Position numbers and translations under genes: made by a program
NCBI GenBank assembly: GCA_019638595.1
Contig: JAHBTJ010000013.1
Location: forward strand, 62,001-126,000
Source of the DNA: Chitinophagaceae bacterium
Lineage (GTDB): Bacteria; Bacteroidota; Bacteroidia; Chitinophagales; Chitinophagaceae
Reading direction: 5' to 3'
DNA: 64,000 bases
Shown: positions 5,136 to 63,176 of the stretch, piece after piece
Layout: each line of letters starts with the position of its first letter
How positions within the stretch are numbered: position 1 is the first letter of the stretch
The notes under the pieces: model-generated
Database searches by the model: none
Seen by the model: the letters and a program-made list of their open reading frames with translations, nothing else
Told to the model about the DNA's origin: nothing

Positions 5136-5146
5136 TATTTCAAATT

Positions 5147-7274: not shown

Positions 7275-7396
7275 TTTATTAATTTTTAAATTGAATAAGT
7301 ATTTTAAGTTAGGGTTACCACCGTACCATGCAGTACCGGCAACCGGTAAGAGTTATTGTTAGCGGTATAGATGATAGCATCTATGCCACCTTTCTT

Positions 7397-16436: not shown

Positions 16437-16450
16437 ATTTTGCTGCTTTA

Positions 16451-16530
16451 TTGAATAATGCAAATTTGACCATAATGCCAGTGGCTACTATTACGAAATT
16501 TTGGAATTGATTTATAAAATTTCATGGAAC
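16451..16530 (-). promoter_or_regulatory. copA upstream region shared with copZ
   Basis: Homologous to the copZ upstream region over about 80 bases, including TTATAAAT, CGTAATA, GCATT and AAATTTGCA blocks. This supports co-regulation and also fixes the copA start at 16436. Confidence 0.55.
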
Positions 16531-16589
16531 AGGGTTAACCTTGCCAGGGATACTGTTCGCTGCTATTCCGTTTCATGTTGCCAAAGCAA

Positions 16590-16623
16590 AAACAGGCTGA
16601 TCCGCACGGGAAACAGCCTGTTT
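16590..16623. terminator. Terminator of the first Cus operon
   Basis: AAACAGGCTG, 14-base loop, CAGCCTGTTT: a perfect 10-bp stem. On the minus strand it is followed by a short T-run, and on the plus strand by TGTTTTAAC. It lies after the last adaptor gene and before the copA promoter, the right place to end the Cus transcript. Confidence 0.75.
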
Positions 16624-16642
16624 GTTTTAACTTCTTCACTGG

Positions 16643-16751
16643 TTACCAGTTAAAGTTCAGTGGCACGTTTATTTTGAAACCAAAATTCCTGCCCATAGCA
16701 AATACACCCTGCCTGATAATAACCCGCACAGGCGCACCATCGCCATTAATG
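16643..16751 (-). pseudogene. C-terminal scrap of an outer-membrane receptor-like gene
   Basis: A minus-strand frame that enters from the end of the adaptor gene and stops at 16643 reads INGDGAPVRVIIRQGVFAMG and then RNFGFKINVPLNFNW. The alternating hydrophobic, aromatic-ended tail looks like the last strands of an outer-membrane barrel, such as a TonB-dependent receptor. No start or body remains, so this is a remnant. The family call is tentative. Confidence 0.4.
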
Positions 16752-41208: not shown

Positions 41209-41214
41209 ACCTGG

Positions 41215-47130: not shown

Positions 47131-47179
47131 GGGCGTCTGAAAGGTGAAAATGAGTTTGAAAACGTGAAAATGATCAGTG

Positions 47180-47569
47180 ATGAAAGAACAAAATTCAAAC
47201 AGGACACGCATTATCGGGCTGCGTCTGACACCCGATGAGTATGCTAAAATTGAAAAGAAGTGGAAGGCTTCTACCTGTCGAAAGCTAAGCGATTATGTAC
47301 GTCGAAGCCTGTTCGATAAACCCGTTGTAACAACCTACCGTAACAGCTCACAGGATGACTTAATGGCAGAGCTTACCCGGCTTCGCAGCGAGCTAAATGC
47401 AGTAGGAAACAACTTCAATCAAGCTGTTAAAAAGCTCCATACACTCAGCCAGATCGCTGAATTTAAAAGCTGGTTGATAGCGTATGAAGTGGAGAAAAAT
47501 ATCCTTAGCAGTAAGGTAGATGAGGTCAGGATAAACGTAAAAAAAATACTGGAAATATGGTTGCAGTGA
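47180..47569 (+). CDS. MobC-like relaxosome accessory protein
   Basis: About 129 residues from the ATG at 47180 (GTG 47177 adjacent). An N-terminal ribbon-helix-helix-like segment (RIIGLRLTPDEYAKIEKKW, RKLSDYVRRSLFDKPV) is followed by the MobC pattern LNAVGNNFNQAVKKLHTL. It would bind oriT and help the relaxase nick. It overlaps the relaxase gene by 13 bases. Confidence 0.85.
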   Translation: MKEQNSNRTRIIGLRLTPDEYAKIEKKWKASTCRKLSDYVRRSLFDKPVVTTYRNSSQDDLMAELTRLRSELNAVGNNFNQAVKKLHTLSQIAEFKSWLIAYEVEKNILSSKVDEVRINVKKILEIWLQ

Positions 47570-48864
47570 TAAAGCCTGGCCACTCTATGCACCGTATTTT
47601 CAACTACAATGAGAACAAAGTTAAAGAAGGTGTAGCAGAGTGCATCGGAGCAGAAAATTTTCCGCTGAATGCTGATGAAATGAGCCTGAAGATTAAGTTA
47701 GGCTATCTGCTGAAAAGGACAGAACTGAGAGGGAATGTTAAACGAAACAGCGTACATATTTCCCTCAATTTTGACCCTTCGGAAACACATTTGAGCAAGG
47801 AAAAGTTGATGGGAATTGCCAACGTTTATATGCAGAAATTAGGCTTTGGTGAGCAGCCCTATCTTGTTTATCAGCACCATGACGCAGGTCACCCGCATAT
47901 TCATATAGTTACTACTAATATCCAGTCTAACGGCAATCGCATTGACCTGCATCACCTCGGCATTCGCAAGTCAGAGCCTGCAAGAAAAGAGATTGAAAAA
48001 ATGTTTGGTCTTGTAGTCGCCGATGCCCATGCAAGAAGGCAGGCATTCAGGTTAAAACCTATTGATGCAAAGAAGGTACAATACGGGCGTACAGAAACAA
48101 AAAGAGCCATCACCAATGTACTCGATTCGGTACTGTTTAAATATCACTACACCAGTCTGCCGGAGCTGAATGCAGTATTGAAACAGTACAATGTACTGGC
48201 GGATCGAGGCAGTGAACATTCAAGAATTTTTCAGGGTGGCGGATTGGTTTACCGCATACTGGATGAGGATGGAAAGCCTGTAGGCGTACCCATTAAGGCC
48301 AGCGACTTTTATAATAAGCCTACTCTGAAATTTCTGGAAGAAAAATTTAACCCGAATGATGCCAAACGACAACCATTTAAAAGCCGCGTAAAAAATGAAA
48401 TAGACAGGTTGTTTATTGGTAAAACGCCAACATTGGACGAACTGGTAAATCAACTCGAAAGAAAGGGCATACACGTTGCCTTGCGTCAAAATGATGCCGG
48501 GTTGATATATGGCATAACCTACGTGGATCATCAGACCAAAAGTATCTTCAACGGAAGTGCATTGGGTAAGCAATACAGTGCCAAAGCCATACAGGAACGA
48601 TGCGGCTTGAAAGAAGTGATGAAGTCAGAGTTATTACCACAGACAGCTCAAAAAGCAGGCAAAGCTACACAGCCTGCGCAAGTGACCGACCGCGACGTTA
48701 AAACGCTTCCCCAGGATCATACGCCAGATCCAATTAGCATCCCTGTTGGCAATGCACTGGATGCCTTGATACAACCCGACCAAGTAGCTGATTATATACC
48801 CGGTCAGCTAAAGAAAAAAGGCAAGAAAAGAAAAAGAAACAAGAACGTTTCCAATAACCAATAA
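47557..48864 (+). CDS. Relaxase / mobilization nuclease (MobB type, MOBP-like)
   Basis: A 435-residue relaxase that nicks oriT and pilots the strand. N-terminal motifs include NPLN-like FPLNADEMSLK, HISLNFDPSETH and the metal triad QHHDAGHPHIHIVTTN (near 110-125). The C-terminus is basic (KKKGKKRKRNKN). The gene directly follows the MobC-like gene and precedes the coupling protein, the standard order for Bacteroidota mobilization regions. Confidence 0.93.
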   Translation: MVAVIKPGHSMHRIFNYNENKVKEGVAECIGAENFPLNADEMSLKIKLGYLLKRTELRGNVKRNSVHISLNFDPSETHLSKEKLMGIANVYMQKLGFGEQPYLVYQHHDAGHPHIHIVTTNIQSNGNRIDLHHLGIRKSEPARKEIEKMFGLVVADAHARRQAFRLKPIDAKKVQYGRTETKRAITNVLDSVLFKYHYTSLPELNAVLKQYNVLADRGSEHSRIFQGGGLVYRILDEDGKPVGVPIKASDFYNKPTLKFLEEKFNPNDAKRQPFKSRVKNEIDRLFIGKTPTLDELVNQLERKGIHVALRQNDAGLIYGITYVDHQTKSIFNGSALGKQYSAKAIQERCGLKEVMKSELLPQTAQKAGKATQPAQVTDRDVKTLPQDHTPDPISIPVGNALDALIQPDQVADYIPGQLKKKGKKRKRNKNVSNNQ

Positions 48865-48875: not shown

Positions 48876-50873
48876 ATGGCTGTGCAGACAGGTGAGAACG
48901 AACAGGCGCTGAGGAAAATTCTGGACATGACCAGGTTGATCAGTATCGTTATTTTAGTGATACACTTCTATTATTATTGCTATGCTGCCTTTCAGGAATG
49001 GGAGTTGAGCAGCACTTTCAGCGACCGCATTTTAGGTAATATTTACCGAACAGGTATCTTCAGCAACTTTGTTAAAAGCAAGCTGATTGCTTTAGGCTTT
49101 CTGGCGATTTCGTTGCTCGGAGCCAAAGGCCGAAAGGATGAGAAACTGAATTATAAAACAGCTTTCGCCTACCTCATAACGGGGCTGTTGCTCTATTTTG
49201 CCAGCTACCTTTCCTTGATGCTTCAGTTGCCTGCACATGAGAAGACAATTGTTTATATAAGCATTACCGCAATAGGTTTTTTACTGATACTTTCTGGAGG
49301 CACATTGCTTTCCCGGATCATTAAAAGCAAGTTCAATAACAAGGATATTTTTAACAAGGAAAACGAGACGTTCCCGCAGGAAGAACGCTTACTGGAAAAT
49401 GAATTTTCCATCAACCTGCCGGCACGCTACCGCCTTAAAAACAAGGTTCGCAATAGCTGGATAAATATCATTAATCCTTTCAGGGCGATAATGGTATTAG
49501 GTACTCCCGGAGCAGGTAAATCCTATTTCGTAATCAGGCACGTCATTACCCAACATATCCGTAAGGGGTTTACCATGTTTGTGTACGACTTTAAGTTCGA
49601 CGATCTTTCAAGGATTGCCTACAATTCCTGGTTGAAAAACAAGCATAGGTACGCCAAGCCTCCGCGATTTTTTGTGATCAATTTTGACGACTTAACAAGA
49701 AGCCATCGGTGCAATCCTTTGGAGCCATCAGCCATGACCGATATTACTGATGCTGCGGAATCAGCCCGCACCATTTTAATGGGACTAAATAGAGAGTGGA
49801 TAAAGCGTCAGGGCGATTTTTTCGTGGAATCGCCAATTAACTTCCTAACGGCTGTGATATGGTATCTGAAGAAATATAAGGACGGAGAATTTTGCACGTT
49901 GCCACACGTCATAGAACTGATGCAGGCAGATTATGACAGCCTTTTTACGCTGTTCAGGACAGAAGCGGCTAAAGAATGCGAGGTATTGATCAATCCGTTT
50001 TTAAATGCCTACTTAAATGATGTGATGGAACAACTGGAAGGCCAGATAGCATCTGCTAAAGTGGCTATGGCAAGGCTTTCATCACCACAGTTGTATTATG
50101 TTTTATCCGGCAATGATTTCAATCTCGATGTAAATAATCCTGACGACCCAAAAGTCGTTTGCATGGGCAATAATCCGCAAAAGATACAGATCTATGGAGC
50201 GGTGCTTTCTCTTTATGTAACCCGTCTTGTAAAACAGGTAAACAAAAAAGGAAAATTGAAAAGCAGTTTGGTTTTTGACGAGTTTCCAACGATTTATTTG
50301 AACAACATGGACAGCCTTATAGCCACTGCAAGGAGCAATAAGGTTTCTACCTGCTTAGGCATCCAGGATTTCAGCCAGCTTCGCAAGGATTATGGCCGGG
50401 AGCAGGCAGATGTAATTATGAATATTACCGGCAATATCGTAGCGGGGCAGGTTACAGGCGATACCGCAAAACAGCTCTCCGAACGCTTCGGGAAAATCAT
50501 GCAGGACAGGGAAAGTTATTCCATCAACAGCGGGGATACTTCTATCAGTCGCTCAAAGCAACTGGAGGCCGCTATACCTCCATCAAAAATATCGGCGTTA
50601 AGTTCTGGCGAGTTCGTGGGCATGGTAGCTGACGACCCTGATAATAAAATAGACCTGAAAGCCTTCCATTGTGAAATTATCAATGACCACGATGCACTAA
50701 AAAGAGAGGAGGAAAGCTATAAGGAGATAGAGATGATCCGCAAGCTGGATAATGGCATGGTACAGCGCAATTATTTACAGATAAAGCAGGATATAAAAGA
50801 TATTATTCAATCGGAAATGGAACGATTATTAAATAACCCAAGCCTGAGTCATTTGGTGGTCAATAAAGAATAA
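48876..50873 (+). CDS. Type IV secretion coupling protein (TraG/VirD4, YWFCY type)
   Basis: A 665-residue ATPase that connects the relaxosome to a mating pore. N-terminal membrane spans (residues 15-150) are followed by Walker A GTPGAGKSYF (about 208-217) and Walker B SSLVFDEFPTIYLN. ITGNIVAGQVTGDTAKQLSE is a typical TraG motif. An upstream Tyr-rich helix (HFYYYCYAAFQEW) fits the YWFCY family name. No pore genes are present here, so transfer would need genes outside this window or a helper. Confidence 0.92.
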   Translation: MAVQTGENEQALRKILDMTRLISIVILVIHFYYYCYAAFQEWELSSTFSDRILGNIYRTGIFSNFVKSKLIALGFLAISLLGAKGRKDEKLNYKTAFAYLITGLLLYFASYLSLMLQLPAHEKTIVYISITAIGFLLILSGGTLLSRIIKSKFNNKDIFNKENETFPQEERLLENEFSINLPARYRLKNKVRNSWINIINPFRAIMVLGTPGAGKSYFVIRHVITQHIRKGFTMFVYDFKFDDLSRIAYNSWLKNKHRYAKPPRFFVINFDDLTRSHRCNPLEPSAMTDITDAAESARTILMGLNREWIKRQGDFFVESPINFLTAVIWYLKKYKDGEFCTLPHVIELMQADYDSLFTLFRTEAAKECEVLINPFLNAYLNDVMEQLEGQIASAKVAMARLSSPQLYYVLSGNDFNLDVNNPDDPKVVCMGNNPQKIQIYGAVLSLYVTRLVKQVNKKGKLKSSLVFDEFPTIYLNNMDSLIATARSNKVSTCLGIQDFSQLRKDYGREQADVIMNITGNIVAGQVTGDTAKQLSERFGKIMQDRESYSINSGDTSISRSKQLEAAIPPSKISALSSGEFVGMVADDPDNKIDLKAFHCEIINDHDALKREEESYKEIEMIRKLDNGMVQRNYLQIKQDIKDIIQSEMERLLNNPSLSHLVVNKE

Positions 50874-51148: not shown

Positions 51149-51769
51149 TTATTTGTTGTCAATGATGGTTGATGAAGTTACTTTATAGCCGATGCTGTTT
51201 ATACTGTTTGCAATAGTGTCAGCAGATGTTTTACTATTGTCAAACTTTACGATTGCATTTCCATTTTTGTAAGATGTATTAGCTTCAATAACTCCGTTTA
51301 CTTTGGAAAGTTCTCCGTTTATGTGAGCTGTACAACCTTCACAGTCCATTCCGCTAATGTTGAGTTGAACCGTTGCAATATTGGCTTTATCAACTATGAT
51401 TACTTTTGTTTCTTGTGGCTTGGAATAAAATATTTTAGCATAGTAAGGAAACGCAATTAGAAGTCCCGCTATAATTGTGACGATGGCTAAAAATGATTTT
51501 GATTGCCAAAATGATTTTTTGTTATCTGCTTCGCAATCGCAATCAACCTGTTTTTGTGGTTTCAATTTTTTATACCAGGCAAATGCGAAAATTGCAATTG
51601 TTAAACAAATTAAGTAAGGTCTGTATGGATCCATCCACGAAAAAGATGAGGCAAGTCCGCTTGCACCACCCAAGAAAGCCAAAACAGGAGTAATGCAGCA
51701 AAGCGAAGCTGCAACTGCCGTCAACAGTCCTGCAATCCAGCTTTTATTTTTTTTTGTTGTCATTGTCAT
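51149..51769 (-). CDS. merT: Mercuric transport fusion MerTP
   Basis: A 206-residue fusion. The N-terminal MerT-like part has membrane helices and a vicinal CC in the first (SLCCITPVLAFLGG). The C-terminal MerP-like HMA domain has ISGMDCEGCTAHI (near residue 140). MerT moves Hg2+ inward. The ATG overlaps the stop of the regulator by four bases. No mercuric reductase gene is seen within the window, so the uptake genes appear alone here. Confidence 0.9.
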   Translation of the reverse strand: MTMTTKKNKSWIAGLLTAVAASLCCITPVLAFLGGASGLASSFSWMDPYRPYLICLTIAIFAFAWYKKLKPQKQVDCDCEADNKKSFWQSKSFLAIVTIIAGLLIAFPYYAKIFYSKPQETKVIIVDKANIATVQLNISGMDCEGCTAHINGELSKVNGVIEANTSYKNGNAIVKFDNSKTSADTIANSINSIGYKVTSSTIIDNK

Positions 51770-52134
51770 ACTGTCGCCAAATTTTGGTGATTGATAATTT
51801 TAAAAAACGGTCTTAAAATTTTCAAATGTTCACTGCGTAATGAATAGAAAATAGTTTGTCCTTCCTTTCTGGCTTCAATAATATTCCTATCTTTTAGTTT
51901 GCGTAAGTGTTGAGAAACAGCCGGGATGCTCATTCGTAAAATATCGCTAAGGTCGCAGGGGCAGAGTTCATTTTCTTCTTCAAGCAAAAATAGGATTTTC
52001 AATCGTGCTTCGTTGCCTGCCAAAGCAAGAACCTGTCCCAACTGTAAAAAGGCTTTTGAATTAGCCTTTAATTTTTCACGGCAACTTTTAATTTGTCCGA
52101 TGTCTGCTTGCAACCTGATGCAGGTATCACCCAT
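51766..52134 (-). CDS. ArsR/SmtB family metal-sensing repressor (mercury operon)
   Basis: A 122-residue winged-helix repressor from ATG 52134. The sensor motif ELCPCDL lies in the recognition-helix region, then IPAVSQHLRKLKDRNIIEAR. Binding of Hg2+ or a related thiophilic ion to the CPC cysteines should release DNA. The operator is visible 42-63 bases upstream. In many Bacteroidota an ArsR-type sensor takes the place of MerR for MerTP, which fits this arrangement. Confidence 0.9.
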   Translation of the reverse strand: MGDTCIRLQADIGQIKSCREKLKANSKAFLQLGQVLALAGNEARLKILFLLEEENELCPCDLSDILRMSIPAVSQHLRKLKDRNIIEARKEGQTIFYSLRSEHLKILRPFFKIINHQNLATV

Positions 52135-52154
52135 TGTCAAACTTTTTGTTTTAG

Positions 52155-52197
52155 CAAATGTAAGAATTATTTACTTATTTAAGCAAATACTTAAATA
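52155..52197 (-). promoter_or_regulatory. Promoter and operator of the mercury operon
   Basis: TATTTAAG, CAAATA spacer, CTTAAATA (52176-52197): a perfect 8-bp inverted repeat of the ArsR/SmtB style. On the minus strand the -7 element TACATTTG is at 52162-52155. A TTTG that could serve as -33 falls inside the operator (52187-52184), 21 bases upstream of it. Repressor bound here would block polymerase. Confidence 0.7.
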
Positions 52198-52262
52198 TAA
52201 TATAGATACTCCATAAGACATACTCACAAAACACCCATTAAAATTCATTTTTCTTTAAAAGT

Positions 52263-52351
52263 GCATGTCCCTTTGGGTCGGGTCATTCCAGGGTACGCTT
52301 CGCTTCCGTCCCTCTTTCATCGTGACCGGCTCGTTCCTCACCGCCTTACAT
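52263..52351 (+). repeat. 89-bp direct repeat, left copy
   Basis: Identical to 57004-57092 except for two bases (CCCTTTGGG versus CCCTTCGGG and CACCGCC versus CACTGCC). The pair brackets the MerR unit and the arsenic operon. Origin and role unknown. Confidence 0.9.
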
Positions 52352-52435
52352 AGCCGCCAGCTATTTCGCATAAGCCAGTCAAAATGAAGATTGATACCGA
52401 TTTTATTACTTCCATTTTTGTACAATTTACGTTAC

Positions 52436-52837
52436 TCAATCAAGATCGAACAAGGGACAGTTTTCTGTAGCTTGAGGCTTGCAGTACGCAGCATTGCAGC
52501 TTTCGATACTGCTTTTTAATAATGATTTCAATGCTTTCAGTTCCTGTATCTTTTCATCTACAATGGCAATTTTATCACTGGCTGTTTTGCTGATAACCTC
52601 GCAGGATGCAAGGTTGTTATCCAGCAAGGCTATTATCTCTGCTGCTTCGTTTAAGGTAAAGCCGTAGGACTTTATTTTTTTGAACAACAGCAGGCGGCGT
52701 AGCACTTCTTCAGAATATTCTTTGTAGTTGTTTACCCGCCTTTCCCTTCGTCCTAAAGAGATTAAGCCCTGCTTTTCGTAAAAGCGGATGGTATCTCTTG
52801 TAAAACCGCTACGTTTTGAAAGCTCACCTATTAGCAT
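52436..52837 (-). CDS. MerR family metal-responsive regulator
   Basis: About 133 residues from ATG 52837 (MLIGELSKRSGFTRDTIRF is the classic MerR start; the longer open frame runs through the promoter and is rejected). The winged helix is followed by a dimer helix with Cys in NNLASCEVI and a C-terminal cysteine cluster (IESCNAAYC, TENCPLF). The cysteine pattern resembles Hg/Cd/Pb/Zn sensors. It is divergent from the gene at 52921 and shares a symmetric promoter with it. Confidence 0.9.
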   Translation of the reverse strand: MLIGELSKRSGFTRDTIRFYEKQGLISLGRRERRVNNYKEYSEEVLRRLLLFKKIKSYGFTLNEAAEIIALLDNNLASCEVISKTASDKIAIVDEKIQELKALKSLLKSSIESCNAAYCKPQATENCPLFDLD

Positions 52838-52857
52838 AATAAAAAAATATTTGACTA

Positions 52858-52897
52858 CAAAGGTACACCGTGGACTATACTCCACGGTTTAGTTTTG
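52858..52897. promoter_or_regulatory. Divergent MerR-type operator with two back-to-back promoters
   Basis: ACCGTGGA, CTATAC, TCCACGGT (52867-52888) is a perfect 8-bp MerR-style dyad. One base beyond each end lies a -7 element: TACCTTTG on the minus strand (52865-52858) and TAGTTTTG on the plus strand (52890-52897). A sigma-70-like TTGACT (52851) and TATACT (52876) with a 19-base spacer is also present. Confidence 0.75.
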
Positions 52898-52920
52898 CTT
52901 ATAAAATAAATTTTACTAAG

Positions 52921-53391
52921 ATGATTATTAGAAACTTACTACTGGCTGGCGTTCTGCTGTGCTGTAGCTGCAATGGTATCTGTCAAACTAAAAAGGCTCA
53001 TGCTTCCTGTACGGATGCTTGCTGCAAGGACGGTAAAAAGGACAAAAAAACAGTTGAAAACAATGTAATAACGATTGCCATGAATGACAGTGCCAAGAAG
53101 AAGCCGATTACCTGCAAGCTGACCACACCTGAATTACAGGAAAGAAAAACAGAGGTGCTGGCATCGCTTAAAGCTAAGGTGATGAAACGGGAAGAATTGC
53201 CCAAAGGTTATTCCTATCTGTTTGCTTCAACGGATAAGAATATTGATGAGGTAACTGCCTTTATTAAGACAGAACGTACCTGCTGCGATTTCTTCAGCTT
53301 TAAGATTGCGATAGAAGACAAAGACCTTTGGTTGACGATAACCGGCGAAGACGGAACAAAGGGTTTTATTACTGGTGAAATGGGGCTTTAG
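52921..53391 (+). CDS. Exported Cys-rich metal-associated protein
   Basis: A 156-residue exported protein. The N-terminus LLCCSCNGICQ can serve as a lipobox or metal site, then SCTDACCKDGKKD. The C-terminal 80 residues (REELPKGYSYLFAS, FIKTERTCCDFFSFKIAIED, LWLTITGEDGTKGFI) form a conserved domain known from metal-resistance loci, with the CC pair near residue 122. It is controlled by the divergent MerR. ATG 52921 is chosen, as the longer frame runs into the operator. Function is probably periplasmic metal capture (inference). Confidence 0.7.
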   Translation: MIIRNLLLAGVLLCCSCNGICQTKKAHASCTDACCKDGKKDKKTVENNVITIAMNDSAKKKPITCKLTTPELQERKTEVLASLKAKVMKREELPKGYSYLFASTDKNIDEVTAFIKTERTCCDFFSFKIAIEDKDLWLTITGEDGTKGFITGEMGL

Positions 53392-53398
53392 CCCCATT
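53379..53398. terminator. Bidirectional terminator between convergent genes
   Basis: AATGGGGC, TTTA loop, GCCCCATT: the stem includes the TAG stop of the plus-strand gene. It separates that gene from the arsenic operon, which ends at 53413 on the other strand. Confidence 0.65.
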
Positions 53399-53412
53399 GC
53401 TGTACTATGTCG

Positions 53413-53790
53413 TTATTGAGTTATTGCCCGGTATGCCGCGGCATCCAGCAACTTAGCTGTTTCGCTTGTGTCGGTCAATTCTATTTGTATCATCCAACCT
53501 TCGCCAAAGGGGTCACTGTTTACCAATGCTGGCTCCTGCCGTAAACCTGAATTGATAGCGGTTACTTTTCCGCTAACAGGCATAAACAAATCGCTTACGG
53601 TTTTGACGGCTTCTACTGTGCCGAAAACTTCATCCTGCTTGTAGCTATTACCGATATTGGGCTGGTCAACGTACACAATTTCGCCTAACTCACTTTGTGC
53701 AAATTCGGTAATGCCTATTGTACCTGTATTGCCTTCTATGCGTAACCATGTATGCTCTTTGTGGTATTTCAGTTGTTCCGGAAAGTTCAT
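53413..53790 (-). CDS. gcvH: Glycine cleavage H protein-like lipoyl carrier
   Basis: A 125-residue lipoyl-domain protein. The lipoylation site is intact: EVFGTVEAVKTVSDLF with Lys63, followed by MPVSGKV. The N-terminus (YHKEHTWLRIEGNTGTIGIT) is normal GcvH. It is the last gene of the arsenic operon, with no glycine cleavage genes (T, P) near. Arsenite poisons dihydrolipoyl groups, so an extra H protein might serve as a lipoyl reserve or arsenic-binding carrier (inference). Confidence 0.92.
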   Translation of the reverse strand: MNFPEQLKYHKEHTWLRIEGNTGTIGITEFAQSELGEIVYVDQPNIGNSYKQDEVFGTVEAVKTVSDLFMPVSGKVTAINSGLRQEPALVNSDPFGEGWMIQIELTDTSETAKLLDAAAYRAITQ

Positions 53791-53811
53791 ATTGATTGTT
53801 TTTTTGTTTGG

Positions 53812-54585
53812 TTAATAGCCTTTCCTTAGCATATCTGCATACTCATCAGGCAATGGGCTTGCTTCTACTGCTCTGGCTGCTTTTTCTACATCGTAATCGA
53901 AACGGATAAATTCTACCTGTATGCTGTCTTTATCCAATATGCTGCTGTTATCGTTGATGTGCAGCATTACATAACCGCCTTGTGGGTTGCCGTCTTTCGG
54001 CTTGCCTACAGAACCTATGTTGATGGCGTGGCGGTGTCTTGTTTTATTTTCTGCTGTTTCCTGCAATGTGCGGTGATAGGGCTTGTGTGTATGACCAAAG
54101 CACATGATGTCTGCATCGGCATCGTGCATGATGCGTAACAGGCTTTTTTCTTCCCTGTCTTCAAACAGGTATTCGTTTATTTTTCTTGGGCTGCCGTGTA
54201 CCAAAAGCAGGTTCAGCTTGTCTTCGTTTAGCTGGTATTCTACTTTAATGTGTGCCGGTAGTGTACGCAGGTAGGCTCTTTCTTCTGGTTTCATTATTTC
54301 GTTGGTGTAGGAAATGGAAATGTTGCCGTTTGATTTTTCGTGGTCGGTTTTGTAAGCACATCCACATTCGTTGCTCATTCGCCCTATGCCAAAATCGTAG
54401 TTGCCTGCAATGGTGGGTATACCCCGTTTTTTTATTTCGTTCACTACTTCATTTGCCCAAACGTTGTAGCCTACCAAATCGCCTAAACAATAGACAGCAT
54501 CGGGCTTGCGGCTGTCAAGGTCTTTAAAAAACGCTTCCAGTGCAGGAAGGTTTGCGTGAATGTCGCTGAATAATGCAATCTTCAT
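53812..54585 (-). CDS. Calcineurin-like metallophosphoesterase
   Basis: A 257-residue enzyme of the YfcE/ApaH-like group with all metal motifs: FSDIHAN, LGDLVGYN, GNYD, VHGSPR and GHTHKPYH. A Cys pair in MSNECGCAYKTD (about residues 71-82) is unusual and could bind arsenic or metal. Its start follows the ACR3 stop by three bases, so it belongs to the arsenic operon. The substrate is unknown. Confidence 0.9.
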   Translation of the reverse strand: MKIALFSDIHANLPALEAFFKDLDSRKPDAVYCLGDLVGYNVWANEVVNEIKKRGIPTIAGNYDFGIGRMSNECGCAYKTDHEKSNGNISISYTNEIMKPEERAYLRTLPAHIKVEYQLNEDKLNLLLVHGSPRKINEYLFEDREEKSLLRIMHDADADIMCFGHTHKPYHRTLQETAENKTRHRHAINIGSVGKPKDGNPQGGYVMLHINDNSSILDKDSIQVEFIRFDYDVEKAARAVEASPLPDEYADMLRKGY

Positions 54586-54588
54586 TTG

Positions 54589-55665
54589 TTATTGTGTTAC
54601 TGTTTTTAGATAATATTTTTTGCGAAGCCAAAAGGCTACGTTCACCAGTCCTATTAATGCCGGTACTTCTACCAACGGACCTATAACGCCTGCAAATGCC
54701 TGTCCGCTGTTGATGCCGAAAACACCTATGGCTACTGCTATTGCCAGTTCAAAATTGTTACCTGCTGCGGTGAATGCGATGGATGCATTTTTAGAATAGT
54801 CTGCCCCTAATGCTTTACCAATAAAGAAGCTGGTTAAAAACATGATGACGAAGTAAACGGCTAATGGTATGGCTATGCGTACAACGTCTAAGGGTATCTG
54901 TACAATCAGGTTGCCTTTAAGGCTGAACATGAGTACAATGGTAAAGAGTAATGCAATGAGTGTAATGGGTGATATGACGGGAATAAATTTTTTGCTGTAC
55001 CATTCTTCTCCTTTTAGCTTTACCAGTATAAAACGGCTTAGTACGCCTGCGGCAAAGGGAATACCTAAATAGATGGCTACGCTTTCGGCTATCTGTGCAA
55101 TGGTAATATTTACATCAAAGCCTTTCAGCCCGAACAATGGCGGCAATACGGTAATAAACAGGTAAGCATATACGCTGTACAATAACACCTGGAATATACT
55201 GTTGAGTGCTACCAAACCTGCGGCATACTCCCTGTTGCCTTCTGCCAGTTCGTTCCATACGATTACCATTGCAATACAGCGGGCAATGCCTATCAATATC
55301 AAGCCTATCATGTATTCGGGATAGTCGTGCAGAAATACTACTGCCAGTATGAACATGAGAATGGGACCAATTACCCAATTGAGCAATAAGGATGCCCCTA
55401 ATACTTTTGTGTTCTTGAATACCTCGCCGATTTTCTCATAACGTACTTTGGCTAAAGGTGGGTACATCATCAATATTAAGCCTATTGCTAAAGGGATATT
55501 GGTTGTGCCGCTGGAATAGGAATTGATGAAGCCGGGGGCGGCAGGTATGAAATACCCTATTGCCACACCCAACGCCATTGCAGCAAATATCCATACGGTA
55601 AGATACCGGTCAAGGAAACTTAGTTTTTTTCTTTCGTGTGCCGGGGCACAATTGTTTGCTGACAT
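54589..55665 (-). CDS. acr3: ACR3 family arsenite efflux transporter
   Basis: A 358-residue permease with ten membrane spans that expels As(III) using the proton gradient. The ACR3 signature [18 protein letters not shown] includes the essential Cys in TM4, and [16 protein letters not shown] is intact. It lies between the methyltransferase gene (20 bases) and the phosphoesterase gene (3 bases). ACR3 is unrelated in sequence to ArsB, and the ArsB-type ATPase ArsA is absent. Confidence 0.95.
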
Positions 55666-55685
55666 GCTTTTGCTTTATGGATTTA

Positions 55686-56534
55686 TTAATTGCAGCATTC
55701 AGGACCGCAACAGGCTTTCTTTGCTTCGGCTGGTTTTTCTGCATAAACGGTTACGCTGAATATGCCTGTGTTGCCTGCTTTGAATTGTTGTAGTTCTTCT
55801 GCATTGAGGTAGTTGCTTAAAATATCGTCTGGTATTACTATCGCTTTTTCTTTTTGCAGGGTAATCTTGGTAAAGCCGTTTGTTTGTATCAGTTCAAGGT
55901 AAACGTCTTTCTGTATGGCTCCAGCTACGCAGCCTGCATACATTTCTGCGGCTTCCTGTAGAGCTTTGGGCAGGTTCCCTTTCAGCACCACATCGGAAAT
56001 ACTGAAGTGTCCGCCGGGTTTTAACACCCGGTAGATGTCTTTTATTACCGCATCTTTATTGGGTACAAGGTTTAATACGCAGTTACTTACAATTACGTCT
56101 GCTGTGTTGGCTGTTACAGGCATATTTTCAATATCGCCCTGCCTGAACTCTACGTTTTTATAGCCTAATTTTTCTGCGTTGGTTCTCGCTTTGTCAATCA
56201 TGGCAGGGGTAAAGTCTATGCCGATGATCTTACCTCCTTCGCCAACTTCTGCCCTTGCTATAAAACAGTCGTTACCTGCTCCACTGCCTAAGTCTATTAC
56301 GGTATCGCCTTTTTTTATCTTGGCAAACTGTGTAGGTAAGCCGCAGCCTAAGCCTAAGTCTGCATCAGGGTTGTAACCGTTCAACTCTGTGTAATCATCA
56401 TTCATGATGTTGTACACTTCGGTACTGCGACAGGTGGAACCGCAGCAGGATGCTTCGTTAGTTTCCTTGTCCTGTAAGGCTATCTCGCTGTATTTCTGCC
56501 TTACAATGTCTTTTAACTCTTGTTCTGTTTGCAT
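55686..56534 (-). CDS. arsM: Arsenite S-adenosylmethionine methyltransferase
   Basis: A 282-residue methyltransferase that turns As(III) into methylarsenicals. The SAM site VIDLGSGAGNDCF and the GDIENMPV loop are present. As-binding cysteines lie in ASCCGSTCR, SNCVLNLV and YAGCVAGAI, and the C-terminus ends in ACCGPECCN. It is the first structural gene after arsR and has its own palindromic operator 26-41 bases upstream. Confidence 0.94.
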   Translation of the reverse strand: MQTEQELKDIVRQKYSEIALQDKETNEASCCGSTCRSTEVYNIMNDDYTELNGYNPDADLGLGCGLPTQFAKIKKGDTVIDLGSGAGNDCFIARAEVGEGGKIIGIDFTPAMIDKARTNAEKLGYKNVEFRQGDIENMPVTANTADVIVSNCVLNLVPNKDAVIKDIYRVLKPGGHFSISDVVLKGNLPKALQEAAEMYAGCVAGAIQKDVYLELIQTNGFTKITLQKEKAIVIPDDILSNYLNAEELQQFKAGNTGIFSVTVYAEKPAEAKKACCGPECCN

Positions 56535-56559
56535 AAAATGAATTTTTAAATGTTGCTAT

Positions 56560-56575
56560 ATCGTAATATCACGAT
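56560..56575. promoter_or_regulatory. ArsR-type operator upstream of arsM
   Basis: ATCGTAATATCACGAT, one base off a perfect palindrome. It matches 14 of 16 bases with the site upstream of arsR. It lies 26-41 bases before the arsM start. Confidence 0.7.
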
Positions 56576-56593
56576 AGATATAAGCAAAAAAAA

Positions 56594-56926
56594 TCAGCAA
56601 CACTCGTTGCCAACTTTCTTATAACTGCTAAATATGTCGTTCAACAATACCTGTGCTGCTTTCCATTGTTTTTCGTCAATGCAATAGCAGATGGTCACGC
56701 CTTCTATCTCTCCTTTAATCAATCCTGCCCCTTTCAGTTCTTTCAGGTGCTGTGAAATAGTGCTTTGTGATAGCGGTAGTTCGTCCACTATATCGCCACA
56801 AATGCAAGCCTGCCTTTTGATAAGTATTTTAAGGATGGCTACCCTTGCCGGATGCGACAATGCTTTAGCAATTTTTGCTATGGTATTGTCTTTTACTGAA
56901 AATTCTCCCGACTTCGTTGCTCCCAT
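56594..56926 (-). CDS. arsR: ArsR family arsenic-responsive repressor
   Basis: A 110-residue winged-helix repressor from ATG 56926. The arsenic motif is [20 protein letters not shown], with CxC in the recognition region, and the C-terminus ends NECC. The open frame runs upstream to 57082 through the 89-bp repeat, but this is a false extension. It is the first gene of the arsenic operon. It likely represses itself and arsM through the two matching palindromes. Confidence 0.92.
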
Positions 56927-56939
56927 ATCTTTAAAATGT

Positions 56940-56955
56940 ATCGCAATATTACGAT
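56940..56955. promoter_or_regulatory. ArsR-type operator upstream of arsR
   Basis: ATCGCAATATTACGAT, the partner of 56560-56575; consensus ATCGTAATATTACGAT is a perfect palindrome. It ends 13 bases before the arsR ATG, close enough to block initiation. Confidence 0.7.
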
Positions 56956-57003
56956 TAATTTTTGGATTTAAAAATTTTTTCAATTCTTTCAAAACAGTAT
57001 AGG

Positions 57004-57092
57004 GCATGTCCCTTCGGGTCGGGTCATTCCAGGGTACGCTTCGCTTCCGTCCCTCTTTCATCGTGACCGGCTCGTTCCTCACTGCCTTACAT
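57004..57092 (+). repeat. 89-bp direct repeat, right copy
   Basis: Second copy of the element at 52263-52351 with two mismatches; the start points are 4,741 bases apart. Beyond the repeat both copies also keep ATAAGCC about 20-25 bases downstream, so the duplicated region may once have been longer. Confidence 0.9.
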
Positions 57093-57398: not shown

Positions 57399-57788
57399 AT
57401 GAACATCATTGGCAGATTAACAAAGGACGCACAAATTAACACCTTGCCGAGCGACAAACAGGTAGTGAATTTTTCCGTAGCGGTCAACGACAGCTACCGT
57501 AACAAACAGGGCGAGCGAGTGGAACACACCGAGTATTTCAACTGCGCTTACTGGATTTCAATAAATGTTGCTAAGGCACTCACCAAAGGAACATTGGTTG
57601 AGCTTACTGGCAGAGTAAGCGCAAGAGCGTGGATTGATGGCGATGGCGAGGCACACGCAGCGCTCAATTTTCACACTTCACAAATCAAACTGTATGGAGG
57701 TGGCAAGCGAACTGAAACCGTAGCAGGTAGTAACAGCAACAATTCCATAGCACCTGCTAACAAAGGCAATGACGATTTGCCTTTCTAA
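57399..57788 (+). CDS. ssb: Single-stranded DNA-binding protein
   Basis: A 129-residue OB-fold protein of the mobile-element SSB type: MNIIGRLTKDAQINTLPSDK, NFSVAVNDSYRNKQGERVEH, and the acidic C-terminal tip DDLPF that docks partner proteins. It opens the plus-strand block that ends with the PRTRC genes and probably protects DNA during transfer or replication of the element. Confidence 0.93.
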   Translation: MNIIGRLTKDAQINTLPSDKQVVNFSVAVNDSYRNKQGERVEHTEYFNCAYWISINVAKALTKGTLVELTGRVSARAWIDGDGEAHAALNFHTSQIKLYGGGKRTETVAGSNSNNSIAPANKGNDDLPF

Positions 57789-57829
57789 TCATTCATTTTT
57801 CATTTATCAACTTTTAAAAATTTTCAATC

Positions 57830-58903
57830 ATGGCACATAATCTTAATTATAACGCAGGTACGGGCAAATACAGCTTCTTTAGCGTACAGCAAAAGGCATG
57901 GCACAACTTAGGGCAGATAGTAGAACAATATCCCACAAGTGCCGAAGCTATCAAATATGCAGGGCTTGACTTCGAGGTAGTCAAATCTCCCTTATATACA
58001 CATGGTAAGGGTGTAAGCATAGGCAATGACGGTGAAATTAAAGAAGGTAGCAGCATTTTACTCCCCGACAATTTCGCCACCATGCGCACCGATACCAATA
58101 AGGTTTTTGGTGTAGTGGGCAGGGAATATCAGATAGTACAGAATGCAGACGCTTTCGCCTTTTTCGATGCCATTGTAGGTGGCGAAGATGGTATCCTATA
58201 CGAGACAGCAGGAGCATTAGGCAACGGGGAACGCATATTTATTACTGCCAAACTCCCTGATTATATCCGAGTAGGTAACGGTGATGATGTTACAGAAAAA
58301 TACATCTTTCTGACCACCTCACACGATGGTACGGGAAGTATTACCGCAGCGTTTACACCTGTACGTATCGTTTGTCAAAACACCCTCAATGCAGCATTGG
58401 GCAATATGTCTAATGTGGTACGCATTCGCCACACATCAGGTGCAAAACAACGTTTGGAAAATGCTCATAAAGTAATGGGACTGGCTAATCAGCTAAGTGT
58501 ACAACTGGAGGGCATATTCAACCAATGGACAAAGGTGCGTATCTGTGATGAAGAAGTAAAGAAACTTATCCAACTGGCACTTTGCCCCAACAAGGAAACA
58601 TTGGACGCACTCAAAAAAGGTGCAGAGGATGAACTGTCAACCGTTTTTAAAAATACGGTGGAAGATGCCTTTGCTTATGCAATGATGGCAGATACACAAC
58701 AGTTGAATACTACCAAAGGAACAGTGTTCGGGGCATACAATGCGGTAACAGGTTACTATCAGAATGTACGCAATTACAAGGATGATGAAAGCAAACTCCA
58801 ATCTATTGTAATGGGAGGCACAGCACAGGCTAAAGCACAACGAGCATTTGAGTTGTGCAGCCAGTTTGCAAAAGACGGAGCAGACGTGCTTGCGCTGAAC
58901 TAA
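57830..58903 (+). CDS. DUF932 phage/plasmid-like protein
   Basis: A 357-residue protein of the DUF932 family (TIGR03299-like). Family features include KAWHNLGQIVEQYPTSAEAI, FGVVGREYQIVQNADAFAFF, YIFLTTSHDGTGSITAAFTP and VRIVCQNTLNAAL. Such proteins occur on plasmids, phages and integrative elements, with no proven biochemical role. It lies 41 bases after ssb. Confidence 0.93.
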   Translation: MAHNLNYNAGTGKYSFFSVQQKAWHNLGQIVEQYPTSAEAIKYAGLDFEVVKSPLYTHGKGVSIGNDGEIKEGSSILLPDNFATMRTDTNKVFGVVGREYQIVQNADAFAFFDAIVGGEDGILYETAGALGNGERIFITAKLPDYIRVGNGDDVTEKYIFLTTSHDGTGSITAAFTPVRIVCQNTLNAALGNMSNVVRIRHTSGAKQRLENAHKVMGLANQLSVQLEGIFNQWTKVRICDEEVKKLIQLALCPNKETLDALKKGAEDELSTVFKNTVEDAFAYAMMADTQQLNTTKGTVFGAYNAVTGYYQNVRNYKDDESKLQSIVMGGTAQAKAQRAFELCSQFAKDGADVLALN

Positions 58904-59643: not shown

Positions 59644-60237
59644 ATGGAAACTACAAATTTTTTCAGCAGCATAGCTGCATTGAATATAACAGGCGACCTG
59701 CAAGTAACGATACGGAAAGGAGCAGAAAGTAACTGGATAGTATCGGTTATGCTCAACAATGAGCAGTGCGGGGACGATGCAAGGAAACTGATACCACCCC
59801 TCAATCTAAGAGGAAGCGCCGAAGAACTGGACAACGGTTTCTTTGAACGAATAACAACACCCATACAGACCGCTTCAGGTTTAATGGTGGACATGGAAGG
59901 CTTTATGAAACAGTTGGAAGAAGTGAAAAAGCAATCTGCTATGGAAAAGGAAAAGACAGACAGGGAGCGAAAAGAAAAAGAAGCCAAAGAGAAGAAATAC
60001 AGGGAGGCGATGCAAAAAGTAGATGAACTGGAAAAAGAAGGAAAGCACAGGGACGCATGGATGAAAGTGCCAGACCCATCAGAATATCCCGAACAGGCAG
60101 AAGCCATACGCAAACGAAAATCATCCTTATCCTCAAAGTTTGCCCCTGACTTGTTTGGTGCAACTGCAACACCCTTAACTGTTGAACAGCCACAAAGCGA
60201 TGAAGCGAATGTTGAAGAAGAAGAAACAAATCAATAA
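59644..60237 (+). CDS. PRTRC system protein E
   Basis: About 197 residues from ATG 59644 (TTG 59638 is open upstream). NFFSSIAALNITGDLQVTIR, LIPPLNLRGSAEELDNGFFE and a long charged coiled middle (KEKTDRERKEKEAKEKK) match PRTRC E. The protein is first in the cluster E-C-F-B-ThiF. Its biochemical role is unknown; the coil suggests a scaffold. Confidence 0.85.
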   Translation: METTNFFSSIAALNITGDLQVTIRKGAESNWIVSVMLNNEQCGDDARKLIPPLNLRGSAEELDNGFFERITTPIQTASGLMVDMEGFMKQLEEVKKQSAMEKEKTDRERKEKEAKEKKYREAMQKVDELEKEGKHRDAWMKVPDPSEYPEQAEAIRKRKSSLSSKFAPDLFGATATPLTVEQPQSDEANVEEEETNQ

Positions 60238-60255
60238 CCTGTAAAACGAAAAGTC

Positions 60256-60474
60256 ATGTTAATAGCAAAGCATTTAGACAGGATTTTCCTGCTCAAAGAA
60301 AATGGAACGGATATAAGGCTTACAGACCCTGAACCTTCATGGAGCGTGGAAGCGGTGATGAACTTCTATGCAAATACCTATCCTATACTCACCACTGCCA
60401 AAATATCCGCACCACAAATTGAAGATGATACGGTTCAGTATCGTTTTGAAAGTGTCATGGGAACAAAAGGTTAA
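60256..60474 (+). CDS. PRTRC system protein C (ubiquitin-like)
   Basis: A 72-residue protein: LDRIFLLKENGTDIRLTDPE, MNFYANTYPILTTAKI, ending MGTKG. PRTRC C corresponds to the prokaryotic ubiquitin-like (Prok_Ub) family, with a beta-grasp fold. The final residue is Gly, as required for E1-type adenylation and thioester transfer, with no propeptide to be cut off. It is encoded 18 bases downstream of E. Its target proteins are unknown. Confidence 0.85.
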   Translation: MLIAKHLDRIFLLKENGTDIRLTDPEPSWSVEAVMNFYANTYPILTTAKISAPQIEDDTVQYRFESVMGTKG

Positions 60475-60491
60475 TCTTAAAATTTAAAGCA

Positions 60492-61646
60492 ATGGAATAT
60501 GCAACACAATATTATATCGGGCATCATCCAGATGCCCCAAAAGCAAAGGCAAAGAAAACTCTACAAGCAGTTGGGCGAGTTCACAGCATGGGTACAAAGG
60601 ACAAAAGATGCACACGAAATAAGCAAGGACAAACGGAAGTCAGTACCACAACAGATGTTGCCAATGGTTTTTTAAGAACCACCTTCCTGCCTAAACTGGA
60701 GGCGATGAAAACGGTACAACCTGCTACGGAAGTGGAGAAAATAGAAACTGATTTTTATTGTTCGCTGTGTGCAGTTGCCAGGCATTACAACGGCTTCGAG
60801 CCTATGGATACAAGGACGTTTGGCTATCCCTACAATATCGCCCTTTCGGTATGGGAAGTGGAGAACCATTTAAAACGGAACATTAAAAACTGGAATTGTT
60901 TGCGTTTGGTACAGGACGATAAGGGAAAGACCTTTTTTATAAGCGAGGAACAATATAATACTGGAACAACCTTGTTTTATATTCCCGTTATACCGTTATA
61001 TAAAATGCTCAAAGACCCGAAGACAAAAAGAGCAGCCCGATTATTAATGTCCGTATTTGCTTACCTGTATCATGTAGCGGATATACCTTATTACAGGCAG
61101 GAAGATGCTTACCTCTATTGGCAATACGAAATGATTGCAGATTGGATAGAACAGGACGATGAAGCAGAATTGGACAGCCGTAAAGAAGAATTAAACGTTG
61201 CTCAATGGTGCGGTGAAAAGATGGAACAAAAAATGTTCAACCGAAAAAATCTTGATGTTTTTGCAGAACGGATAAAGGCATTCAAGCCTAAGAACGACTT
61301 TGAACCTGAATGTCTGCATGTAGCGAAAGAAATGTTTGTGCTTTATACTGACTATCCTACAACAACGGTTTTTCAACACGCAAAATATGTACAGGATGAT
61401 GAAGAACAGGAGGACGAAATAATTGCAATGCGAAAGTATATATCCTTTATAGCAGATGCAAAGGGATGGCTTTATGAAACGGTTGCAGAAAGTGTAAACA
61501 ATGAGTTCAATGAATGTGGTGAAACAGAAGAACCCACTTTATTAAAAAAGTTTAACGGTACAGCAATCACCGATTGCAGCCTTGAATTTGAAAACAGGCT
61601 ATTCCCATTGATAGGCGATTTATGTTACCTGCTGAATAACGATTAA
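60492..61646 (+). CDS. PRTRC system protein F
   Basis: Up to 384 residues. The well-conserved part runs from about NGFLRTTFLPKLEAMKTVQP (residue 59) through YCSLCAVARHYNGFEPMDTR, TTLFYIPVIPLYKMLKDPK and SVNNEFNECGETEEP. The first 58 codons look unlike protein and overlap a second frame (60499-60675) with a more natural composition. The true start may therefore be downstream, for example ATG 60705. Role unknown. Confidence 0.8.
   Translation: MEYATQYYIGHHPDAPKAKAKKTLQAVGRVHSMGTKDKRCTRNKQGQTEVSTTTDVANGFLRTTFLPKLEAMKTVQPATEVEKIETDFYCSLCAVARHYNGFEPMDTRTFGYPYNIALSVWEVENHLKRNIKNWNCLRLVQDDKGKTFFISEEQYNTGTTLFYIPVIPLYKMLKDPKTKRAARLLMSVFAYLYHVADIPYYRQEDAYLYWQYEMIADWIEQDDEAELDSRKEELNVAQWCGEKMEQKMFNRKNLDVFAERIKAFKPKNDFEPECLHVAKEMFVLYTDYPTTTVFQHAKYVQDDEEQEDEIIAMRKYISFIADAKGWLYETVAESVNNEFNECGETEEPTLLKKFNGTAITDCSLEFENRLFPLIGDLCYLLNND
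60499..60675 (+). CDS. Possible overlapping small basic protein
   Basis: In the +1 frame relative to PRTRC F, an ATG at 60499 opens 58 codons reading MPQKQRQRKLYKQLGEFTAW from codon 12, then SVPQQMLPMVF and stop. The composition is more protein-like than the overlapping F frame. Only one frame is likely to be used here. Confidence 0.4.
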   Translation: MQHNIISGIIQMPQKQRQRKLYKQLGEFTAWVQRTKDAHEISKDKRKSVPQQMLPMVF

Positions 61647-61656
61647 ACGAATTATT

Positions 61657-62373
61657 ATGAAAGATGTACTGGCAAATATCGGAACGCTTTACCATCCTAA
61701 AACGGCTTTGGTTTTTTATGAAGCGAAGGGATTGGATAAAGAAGTGTATGTGGAATATTTTGATATGGATAAGAACGGCAGTCCTATCAATGCCCATCCC
61801 TTGACCATCAAGGAAGCACAGCGTTTGTCGAAGGCGTTGGATACAACAAGAGAAGGCAGTAAGGCTTTTCTGAAACCCAAAGGCATCATCGCATCAAATG
61901 TCCTTTACACAGACCCTTCGGAAAACGGTTTTGTGATGTGGTTTACAAAGGCGACCTGTAAAAATCTCTTTTTCGTTGAAGTTTTAGGCATTTCAAACGG
62001 TAATGCGAGTGTACCCGCATTACTTTGGATAGCCAATATAGACAAGCTGCATATCTATTCCCTGAAAAGCGACAGGAAACCAACTGAAAACACACCGCTT
62101 TATCATGCTCCTTTTTTCAATGTCTATGCAGACGGAAGCGTATGTATGGGTACGGTGGATGTTAATATCAGGAAGTCATCATCGTTGGAGGAATTTACAG
62201 CCGCATGGGAAGCCTATTTCTTTAACAGCTATTTCAGCCACCTGATGCAAAATCATAACCCCATACACGGTAACTGTGTGAGTCTATGGAAGAAACTGCG
62301 GAAGACTGGAGAGCCATTTCCAAAAGAGGTATTGAAAAAGACAGACAGAACAATAAAAAATATACTACGATGA
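61657..62373 (+). CDS. PRTRC system protein B (E2-like)
   Basis: A 238-residue protein. PRTRC B corresponds to the prokaryotic E2 family D. The candidate thioester Cys is C163 in NVYADGSVCMGTVDV, a position like the active-site Cys after the strand in ubiquitin-conjugating enzymes. A second His/Asn-rich motif (NHNPIHGNCVSLW) is downstream. It overlaps the ThiF gene by four bases (ATGA), showing coupled expression of the E2-like and E1-like proteins. Confidence 0.85.
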   Translation: MKDVLANIGTLYHPKTALVFYEAKGLDKEVYVEYFDMDKNGSPINAHPLTIKEAQRLSKALDTTREGSKAFLKPKGIIASNVLYTDPSENGFVMWFTKATCKNLFFVEVLGISNGNASVPALLWIANIDKLHIYSLKSDRKPTENTPLYHAPFFNVYADGSVCMGTVDVNIRKSSSLEEFTAAWEAYFFNSYFSHLMQNHNPIHGNCVSLWKKLRKTGEPFPKEVLKKTDRTIKNILR

Positions 62374-63176
62374 AAACGGATAAAATAAAAGTACACTTTA
62401 CAGACAAAGACCTGATTGCTCCCACCAATCCCATCGAGGTAAACCTGATAGGTGCTGGAGGTACGGGTTCAAAGGTGCTTACCGCATTGTTGGAAATGAA
62501 CTACAGCCTGAATGAATTGGGACATGCAGGGTTAGCGGTCAGGCTTTGGGATGATGATATTGTAACGGATGCCAATTTAGGCAGACAAAGGTTTGCTGAA
62601 TGTGAGGTAGGGTTATATAAGTCCGTTGCCCTGATAAACCGTTCCAACAGATGGGCTGGAACAAATTGGAAAGCAGAAACTACGAAGTTTGAGAGGGATG
62701 GCTTAGACAGGATGCCGGATCATGCACAGGCAAGTATTTACATTTCCTGCGTTGATAGCGTAAAGGCACGATTTGAAATAGCTGAGATACTTAAAGGACT
62801 GAATAGTTACAGGGCATACCGCAACCAAGCCAAATATTGGATGGATTTCGGCAATAGCCAGTCCACAGGGCAGGTGCTACTATCCACTATTGGAAGTATT
62901 AGGCAACCGCAGTCTGAAAAATATGAGGCGGTTGCAAACCTGCCATTCGTTACGGATGAGTATGGGGAACTGCTGAAACAATCCGAAGAAAACGATAATA
63001 CACCAAGCTGCTCACTTGCAGAAGCTCTGGACAAGCAAGACCTGTATATCAATCCCTCCCTTGCACAAATGGGTTGCTCCCTGCTATGGAGCCTTTTCCG
63101 TAACGGAATGACCGAAAATAAGGGCTTCTTTCACAACCTTGCCAACTTTACCACCCAGCCGATAAAGGTTGCCTAA
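62370..63176 (+). CDS. PRTRC system ThiF family protein (E1-like)
   Basis: A 268-residue E1-like adenylating enzyme from ATG 62370. The ATP-binding motif NLIGAGGTGSK (residues 25-35), LWDDDIVTDANLGRQRF (acidic ligands and Arg72) and SCVDSV (about 126-131) are intact. Cys213 in NTPSCSLAEAL is a candidate thiol. Such enzymes activate the C-terminal Gly of a ubiquitin-like partner, here probably PRTRC C. The upstream open frame to 62286 overlaps PRTRC B and is not used. Confidence 0.9.
   Translation: MKTDKIKVHFTDKDLIAPTNPIEVNLIGAGGTGSKVLTALLEMNYSLNELGHAGLAVRLWDDDIVTDANLGRQRFAECEVGLYKSVALINRSNRWAGTNWKAETTKFERDGLDRMPDHAQASIYISCVDSVKARFEIAEILKGLNSYRAYRNQAKYWMDFGNSQSTGQVLLSTIGSIRQPQSEKYEAVANLPFVTDEYGELLKQSEENDNTPSCSLAEALDKQDLYINPSLAQMGCSLLWSLFRNGMTENKGFFHNLANFTTQPIKVA

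Follow-up and report, generated by a model that had tools for sequence, protein, structure and literature searches.

The PRTRC cassette and its predicted products

The stretch of DNA analysed here (64,000 nucleotides, hereafter the window) comprises positions 62,001 to 126,000 of contig JAHBTJ010000013.1 in the assembly of Chitinophagaceae bacterium (GCA_019638595.1), and it carries a PRTRC cassette encoding a ubiquitin-like protein (Ubl), C, together with the E1-like protein ThiF and the predicted E2-like protein B. The first-pass annotation, which was made from the letters of the window, had described five genes in the order E, C, F, B, ThiF at positions 59644–63176, and both coordinates and order proved to be as claimed (Table 1). 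The same is true of its finer details, namely the 72-residue C product with a bare Gly end (...GTKG followed by TAA), the Cys163 of B within SVCMGTV, the GAGGTGSK motif of ThiF and the overlap of the ThiF ATG with the stop codon of B (ATGA, 62370–62373). The locus is therefore genuine, and its PRTRC cassette is well preserved and belongs to a class that lacks PRTRC_A, the JAB protease present in some other loci of this kind.

Comparison with family models placed E, C and ThiF over both of the cut-offs that apply to each (Table 1). Protein B scored over the cut-off of the broader Prok-E2_D family but below that of the stricter PRTRC_B model TIGR03737 (117.8 bits against 131.45), and for this reason it is regarded as a divergent relative and the cassette is filed as a variant. 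The expected matches of C to Prok_Ub, of B to Prok-E2_D and of ThiF to PRTRC_ThiF and PF00899 were thus all obtained over cut-off. The F-position protein had no Pfam match, no meaningful NCBIfam match and no PRTRC_F match at E-values up to 1; its name was assigned by position, which its length also fits, and not by a family model.

Table 1. Genes of the PRTRC cassette, followed by neighbouring genes, in the window (aa, amino acids; family scores are in bits, with cut-offs in brackets).
Feature	Position	Strand	Product	Family matches or basis
PRTRC E	59644–60237	+	197 aa	PF19556 254.2 (26); TIGR03741 39.0 (37.95)
PRTRC C, ubiquitin-like tag	60256–60474	+	72 aa, bare Gly72 end	PF14454 Prok_Ub 92.7 (25); TIGR03738 PRTRC_C 58.7 (45.95)
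F-position protein	60492–61646	+	384 aa, fast-diverging	between C and B as in annotated PRTRC F loci
PRTRC B, predicted E2-like	61657–62373	+	Asn155, Cys163, His195	PF14460 Prok-E2_D 116.4 (25)
PRTRC ThiF, E1-like adenylating enzyme	62370–63176	+	GAGGTGSK, Cys214 in PSCS	TIGR03736 PRTRC_ThiF 237.6 (144.75); PF00899 36.9 (28.1)
MobC/NikA-like protein; MobA-type relaxase; YWFCY/TraG coupling protein	47177–47569; 47557–48864; 48876–50873	+		PF21983, PF19514, PF03432, PF14293, PF02534
Single-strand DNA-binding protein and DUF932 protein	57399–58903	+		PF00436, PF06067

An AlphaFold model of C (44 alignment rows, pLDDT 85.7) has two strands, a helix with a short helix, and two further strands, which is the beta-grasp order. 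The fold proposed for C was thus recovered in topology, by this strand order and by the match to PF14454, with weak support from Foldseek as set out below; a sequence search of the PDB with C returned no relative. The model of B (pLDDT 89.8) consists of a helix, a strand meander, a loop bearing the Cys and two helices, as expected of an E2. Sequence searches of the PDB with B and F gave only weak matches (best E-values 0.066 and 0.037), and a profile of 10 ThiF proteins matched eukaryotic E1s (best 8.4e-9).

The PRTRC_A model (TIGR03735) found no match in the cassette or anywhere in the genome, in agreement with the earlier remark that no JAB protease was visible; the controls gave no match in that search itself, and the same model later matched 6 of 6 records that were positive by our own profile and 0 of 4 negative ones. 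Prok-JAB was matched once in the genome, within a ThiF–JAB fusion on a different contig. This fusion (L003, 46–2493, contig C34) is followed by a small protein that appears membrane-like by eye, and the two are perhaps a separate defence-like operon.

Tag end, JAB protease and catalytic residues across 228 loci

To survey related cassettes, 228 loci with distinct ThiF proteins were assembled from ThiF searches of IMG/VR and of GTDB contigs (best 80 of 468 for the latter), from a search for C within the phylum of the window, from plasmid and phage records, and from a JAB-based scan of IMG/VR (best 80 of 103), and their reading frames were scored with our own iterated profiles for C, B, ThiF and A. 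A first set of 254 loci was reduced to 176, all with C and B, by removing 8 with no ThiF match, 53 with a repeated ThiF and 17 with no C match, and an added set of 87 was reduced to 52 in the same way (1 with no ThiF, 23 with a repeated ThiF and 11 of the 63 left with no C). Scanning with ThiF to add proteobacterial loci yielded only 7. The JAB-based scan selects for the presence of a JAB and so hardly bears on the JAB-less side of the comparison.

By our own profile 139 of the 228 loci are without PRTRC_A, and in none of these does C extend beyond its conserved Gly, the tag ending in a bare Gly in 138 and in Ala in one. Where PRTRC_A is present, C is extended in 73 of 89 loci and bare in 16. 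It had been suggested that a cassette without JAB goes with a tag that needs no processing, and this is what the survey returned. The first count, made on the 176 loci before the JAB-based scan, already had this form (30 JAB-bearing extended, 7 JAB-bearing bare, 138 JAB-less bare and 1 Ala-ended), and clustering at 70% identity within each state left 18 JAB-bearing extended, 9 JAB-bearing bare, 0 JAB-less extended and 79 JAB-less bare clusters. By source, loci with and without JAB numbered 74 and 66 in IMG/VR, 2 and 64 in GTDB contigs, 13 and 7 in plasmid and phage records, and 0 and 2 in the genome of the window itself. The JAMM motif is present in all 89 JAB proteins. The tails range from 1 to 100 residues and are, by eye, unlike each other between lineages, which suggests that they arose separately in different lineages.

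A link that holds in both directions is ruled out by the 16 loci in which a bare tag occurs together with a JAB; these loci indicate that the JAB is not only a processor and suggest a second role, probably deconjugation. In 15 of them the JAB matches the model nearly end to end, and in the remaining one (L097) it is read in two frames. In L097 the PRTRC_A gene (7284–8023) occupies two overlapping frames and may be broken, and a full-length PRTRC_A match is found on another contig of the same genome. We also considered a JAB hidden within JAB-less loci and rejected it: the gap between B and the ThiF domain has a median of 9 nucleotides, the two usually abutting, and in the 8 of 139 loci where the gap exceeds 200 nucleotides our JAB profile matched nothing.

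The Gly column of C is Gly in 227 of the 228 loci, comprising all 89 with a JAB and 138 of the 139 without, so that the conservation expected of the terminal Gly is indeed seen among homologues. The sole exception, L039, ends in Ala (..GTKA), and its tag could be dead, altered or the product of a sequencing error. The association between JAB and tail (the JAB/tail rule) is evolutionary evidence for the terminal Gly as the working end of the tag and for the JAB as its trimmer.

The phylogenetic weight of the rule was assessed on two trees. Parsimony on the first, built with FastTree from all 228 ThiF proteins, gave 7 gains and 3 losses of the tail, all on JAB-bearing branches, which make up 24.9 of 76.2 length units. 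It also gave 3 gains of PRTRC_A and 5 losses, the tag being bare where PRTRC_A is inferred to have been lost. The second, an IQ-TREE tree built on 106 clusters, required 6 tail gains and 4 losses, with 5 of the gains on JAB-bearing branches (27% of the length) and 1 on a JAB-gaining branch, for a crude length-based p of 4e-4. The rule is exceptionless in this sample and mechanistically sensible, but its formal phylogenetic support is moderate.

The residues expected to act in catalysis are also well kept. Cys163 of B, whose conservation among homologues had been anticipated, is present in 174 of 176 loci of the first set and Asn155 in 175 of 176. Conservation of His195 reaches at least 90% in two alignments, and a looser pattern finds such a His in 190 of 223. 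The spacing between Asn155 and Cys163 in the B protein of the window, which equals that of HPN...C in classical E2s, is found in 159 of 228 loci; 64 others deviate from it, being shorter by one or two residues or longer by one, and 5 are off-pattern. All 46 aligned B members match PF14460. The column of ThiF Cys214 is Cys in all 176 loci, and across the 228 loci the GxGG[TN]G and SC[SGT] motifs occur in 227 and 225, respectively. In an alignment of 53 relatives of the F protein, none of the Pfam families had matches to more than a single member (E-values up to 1). F is the fastest-diverging of the four proteins compared (F, C, B and ThiF). In the 11 relatives common to all three alignments, with ThiF proteins 55–63% identical to that of the window, identity was 46–65% for C, 40–48% for B and 21–38% for F.

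Genetic setting and distribution

The cassette had been described as lying beside mobilization genes. Such genes are present on the same strand (Table 1) but do not adjoin it, being located 9–12.5 kb upstream, and among 25 near relatives they occur in the fetched flanks of just 2–3. Between these genes and the cassette lies a module (51149–57082) that by eye resembles arsenic or metal resistance (ArsR-like, methyltransferase and ACR3-like). Further upstream are two different pumps resembling RND metal efflux systems by eye (20506–23735 and 39262–42492), each split in two open frames at a similar-looking place, be it by a frameshift, by an error or as a genuine split.

Among the 25 near loci with 4.5 kb or more of sequence upstream of C, relatives of the single-strand DNA-binding protein (SSB) and of the DUF932 protein were found in 18 and 10, respectively. 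DNA-processing genes are frequent neighbours of PRTRC; in plasmids these include ParB, DnaN, topoisomerase and replication initiation genes; no ParB match was obtained among the window neighbours scanned, which are a part of the window genes.

The assembly (7.06 Mb) contains two PRTRC C matches. At the second locus (L005, 4111–12393, contig C45) the E domain is fused behind an N6-adenine DNA methylase, and this fusion adjoins a gene for a DnaN-like sliding clamp; the helicase gene of the locus (4111–6393) has by eye a seeming intein-like insert.

The nearest relatives of the window ThiF are in Bacteroidota. A PRTRC C match was found in 5 of 247 genomes sampled from the phylum of the window, its own genome included, and in 3 of 369 genomes sampled from the class to which a Sideroxydans assembly belongs; that assembly is one of the 3, and 2 of the 3 matches exceed the cut-off. 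Of 72,556 plasmid records, 375 have a relative of ThiF, some of which are not PRTRC, and 120 have a relative of one PRTRC_A protein. An isolated phage, Burkholderia phage BgVeeders33 (OK665841.1), carries a PRTRC locus at 16216–20702 (L095) with an extended C, B, A and ThiF assigned by profile and E and F by position, which the record labels as hypothetical proteins and a dinucleotide-utilizing enzyme. The JAB-bearing IMG/VR contigs could not be taken for phages, as only 18 of 74 had, in the fetched flanks, a match to a structural, lysis or helicase gene of the isolate phage, and 17 of these were helicase matches.

Proposed mechanism, alternatives and known systems

The cassette is probably a small, one-way Ubl conjugation system without a JAB, which belongs to a mobilizable element and likely serves its upkeep. 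The genes, the conservation of their motifs and the JAB/tail rule are results of this analysis, and we infer conjugation and its irreversibility, roles for F and E, a set of targets and a benefit to the element. ThiF would adenylate the free C-terminal Gly72 of C and then carry C as a thioester on Cys214, B would take C over on Cys163, and C would finally be attached to a protein target that F, perhaps along with E, chooses or holds. Since translation of C stops at the Gly itself, a trimming protease would be unneeded, and because the cassette is without a JAB, removal of the tag would not be built in. The targets may be found among DNA-processing proteins, and given the DNA-processing neighbours it is no more than a reasonable first guess that they belong to the DNA metabolism of the element.

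It is conceivable, although we hold this more tentatively, that PRTRC systems fall into two classes, one reversible, with a JAB of its own and in many cases a tag made as a precursor, and the other, to which the window would belong, being JAB-less and pre-matured with one-way tagging. In the latter, tagging could permanently mark or inactivate a DNA-processing protein, and F could be the selector of targets, for which rapid evolution would be expected. Tagging without built-in reversal would be a feature of note, and the JAB-less form of this compact E1–E2–Ubl kit is singled out by the JAB/tail rule as the simplest one to reconstitute.

A number of results weigh against one-way conjugation by this cassette. 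Foldseek searches of the PDB with the B model returned nothing significant (best E-value 0.14), and chains of the TSG101 UEV, which we take to have an E2-like fold, appeared among the matches only at E-values of 1–2. The best Foldseek match of C is a NUDIX protein (E-value 0.04), ubiquitin and its variants following from rank 3 with a weak E-value of 0.12 and a TM of about 0.5. Of the 73 tails, 10 are very short, 8 consisting of a single residue and 2 of three residues. The JAB-less loci are mostly from Bacteroidota or viral contigs and so are not independent, and the independent-pairs test of treekit, with 1 and 5 supported pairs, was not significant, there being too few contrasts. The JAB of the ThiF–JAB fusion elsewhere in the genome could act in trans on the cassette. 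Relatives of SSB and DUF932 were found in only 1 and 0, respectively, of 77 more distant JAB-less loci, and no biochemistry on the PRTRC kit was found in the literature searched.

The same chemistry could instead serve defence, with the proteins of incoming phages or rival elements being tagged, and this we consider unlikely, if the strongest of the other explanations. BilABCD has an anti-phage role. Bacterial Ubl–E1–E2–deubiquitinase (DUB) operons such as this one are a precedent in make-up, and PRTRC loci are carried on plasmids, integrated elements and a phage, some of them near an antirestriction gene or a Phd/YefM antitoxin gene. A speculated role in addiction or in protection against invading replicons was put forward by Iyer, Burroughs and Aravind (2006; PMC1779556). 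However, E, C, F and B are without a PADLOC match at E-values up to 0.1, ThiF being matched weakly (by an E1–E2 model, best 0.0012), and genes for replication and partition are the commoner ones among the annotated neighbours that were read.

It is improbable that C is a sulfur carrier, on which ThiF would make a Gly72 thiocarboxylate for a cofactor or tRNA with no conjugation to protein. Enzymes of the ThiF family and carriers with a C-terminal Gly do act in this way in the synthesis of thiamine and molybdenum cofactor (PMC1779556), but the constant partner B, with its near-invariant Cys and Pfam E2 assignment, speaks against this, as does the JAB in 89 of 228 loci (at least 51 of these from the JAB-based scan), and no metabolic gene is found among the window neighbours scanned. 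Most improbable is that PRTRC serves the element in accessory partition and that the ubiquitin-like resemblance has no catalytic role, since a ParB-family gene upstream in many proteobacterial loci and the listing of PRTRC among partition genes in two papers (PMC7466150, PMC4465626) are set against catalytic residues of ThiF, B and A that are kept despite wide divergence and against the lack of a ParB both in the annotation of the Bacteroidota plasmid stretch read and among the window neighbours scanned.

This kind of system has been known since 2006, when Iyer, Burroughs and Aravind predicted it to be ubiquitin-like (row 6d of their Table 1), with a Ubl, an E1, an E2, a JAB and a helical protein as its parts, the JAB being predicted both to process the Ubl and to strip it from targets (PMC1779556). 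The cassette of the window shares with 6d a small Ubl whose C-terminal Gly is highly conserved, an E1-like protein, an E2-like protein with a conserved Cys and a downstream His, and a rapidly diverging helical protein, and the 6d list includes Bacteroides (Bthe). According to that paper (PMC1779556), an E1 that is not fused to a JAB always adjoins a JAB gene, whereas none was found in the cassette of the window and in 138 other loci of our set. A laboratory strain, B. thetaiotaomicron, apparently has the same cluster (BT2645 and BT2647–BT2649; PMC10434189), and in the available parts of the other sources PRTRC otherwise appears as an annotation label on plasmids or chromosomes, or as a chance likeness to the name of a plasmid or promoter. 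Neither the JAB-less class nor a JAB/tail rule for PRTRC was found in the literature searched, the search for the rule covering bacterial Ubl systems, the family names and the combination of Ubl, JAB and C-terminal Gly, with later Burroughs papers outside it.

In comparison with the PRTRC cassettes of proteobacterial plasmids (ParB-E-C-F-B-A-ThiF), the window has the same order of E, C, F, B and ThiF and the same families for E, C, B and ThiF, but it is without PRTRC_A, as are several of the plasmid cassettes themselves, no ParB was matched nearby, its F matches no family model and its B falls below the PRTRC_B cut-off. The E1–E2–Ubl logic is also that of BilABCD and of Cap2/Cap3 of type II CBASS, which operate in bacteria as well, with a JAB-family protease in Bil. 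BilA has two Ubl domains and Bil a DUB (PMC11354881), whereas C of the window is a single domain of 72 residues in a cassette with no JAB. By sequence, kinship of the window to Cap2 (2.6e-7) and to BubCD (9.4e-4) runs through ThiF only.

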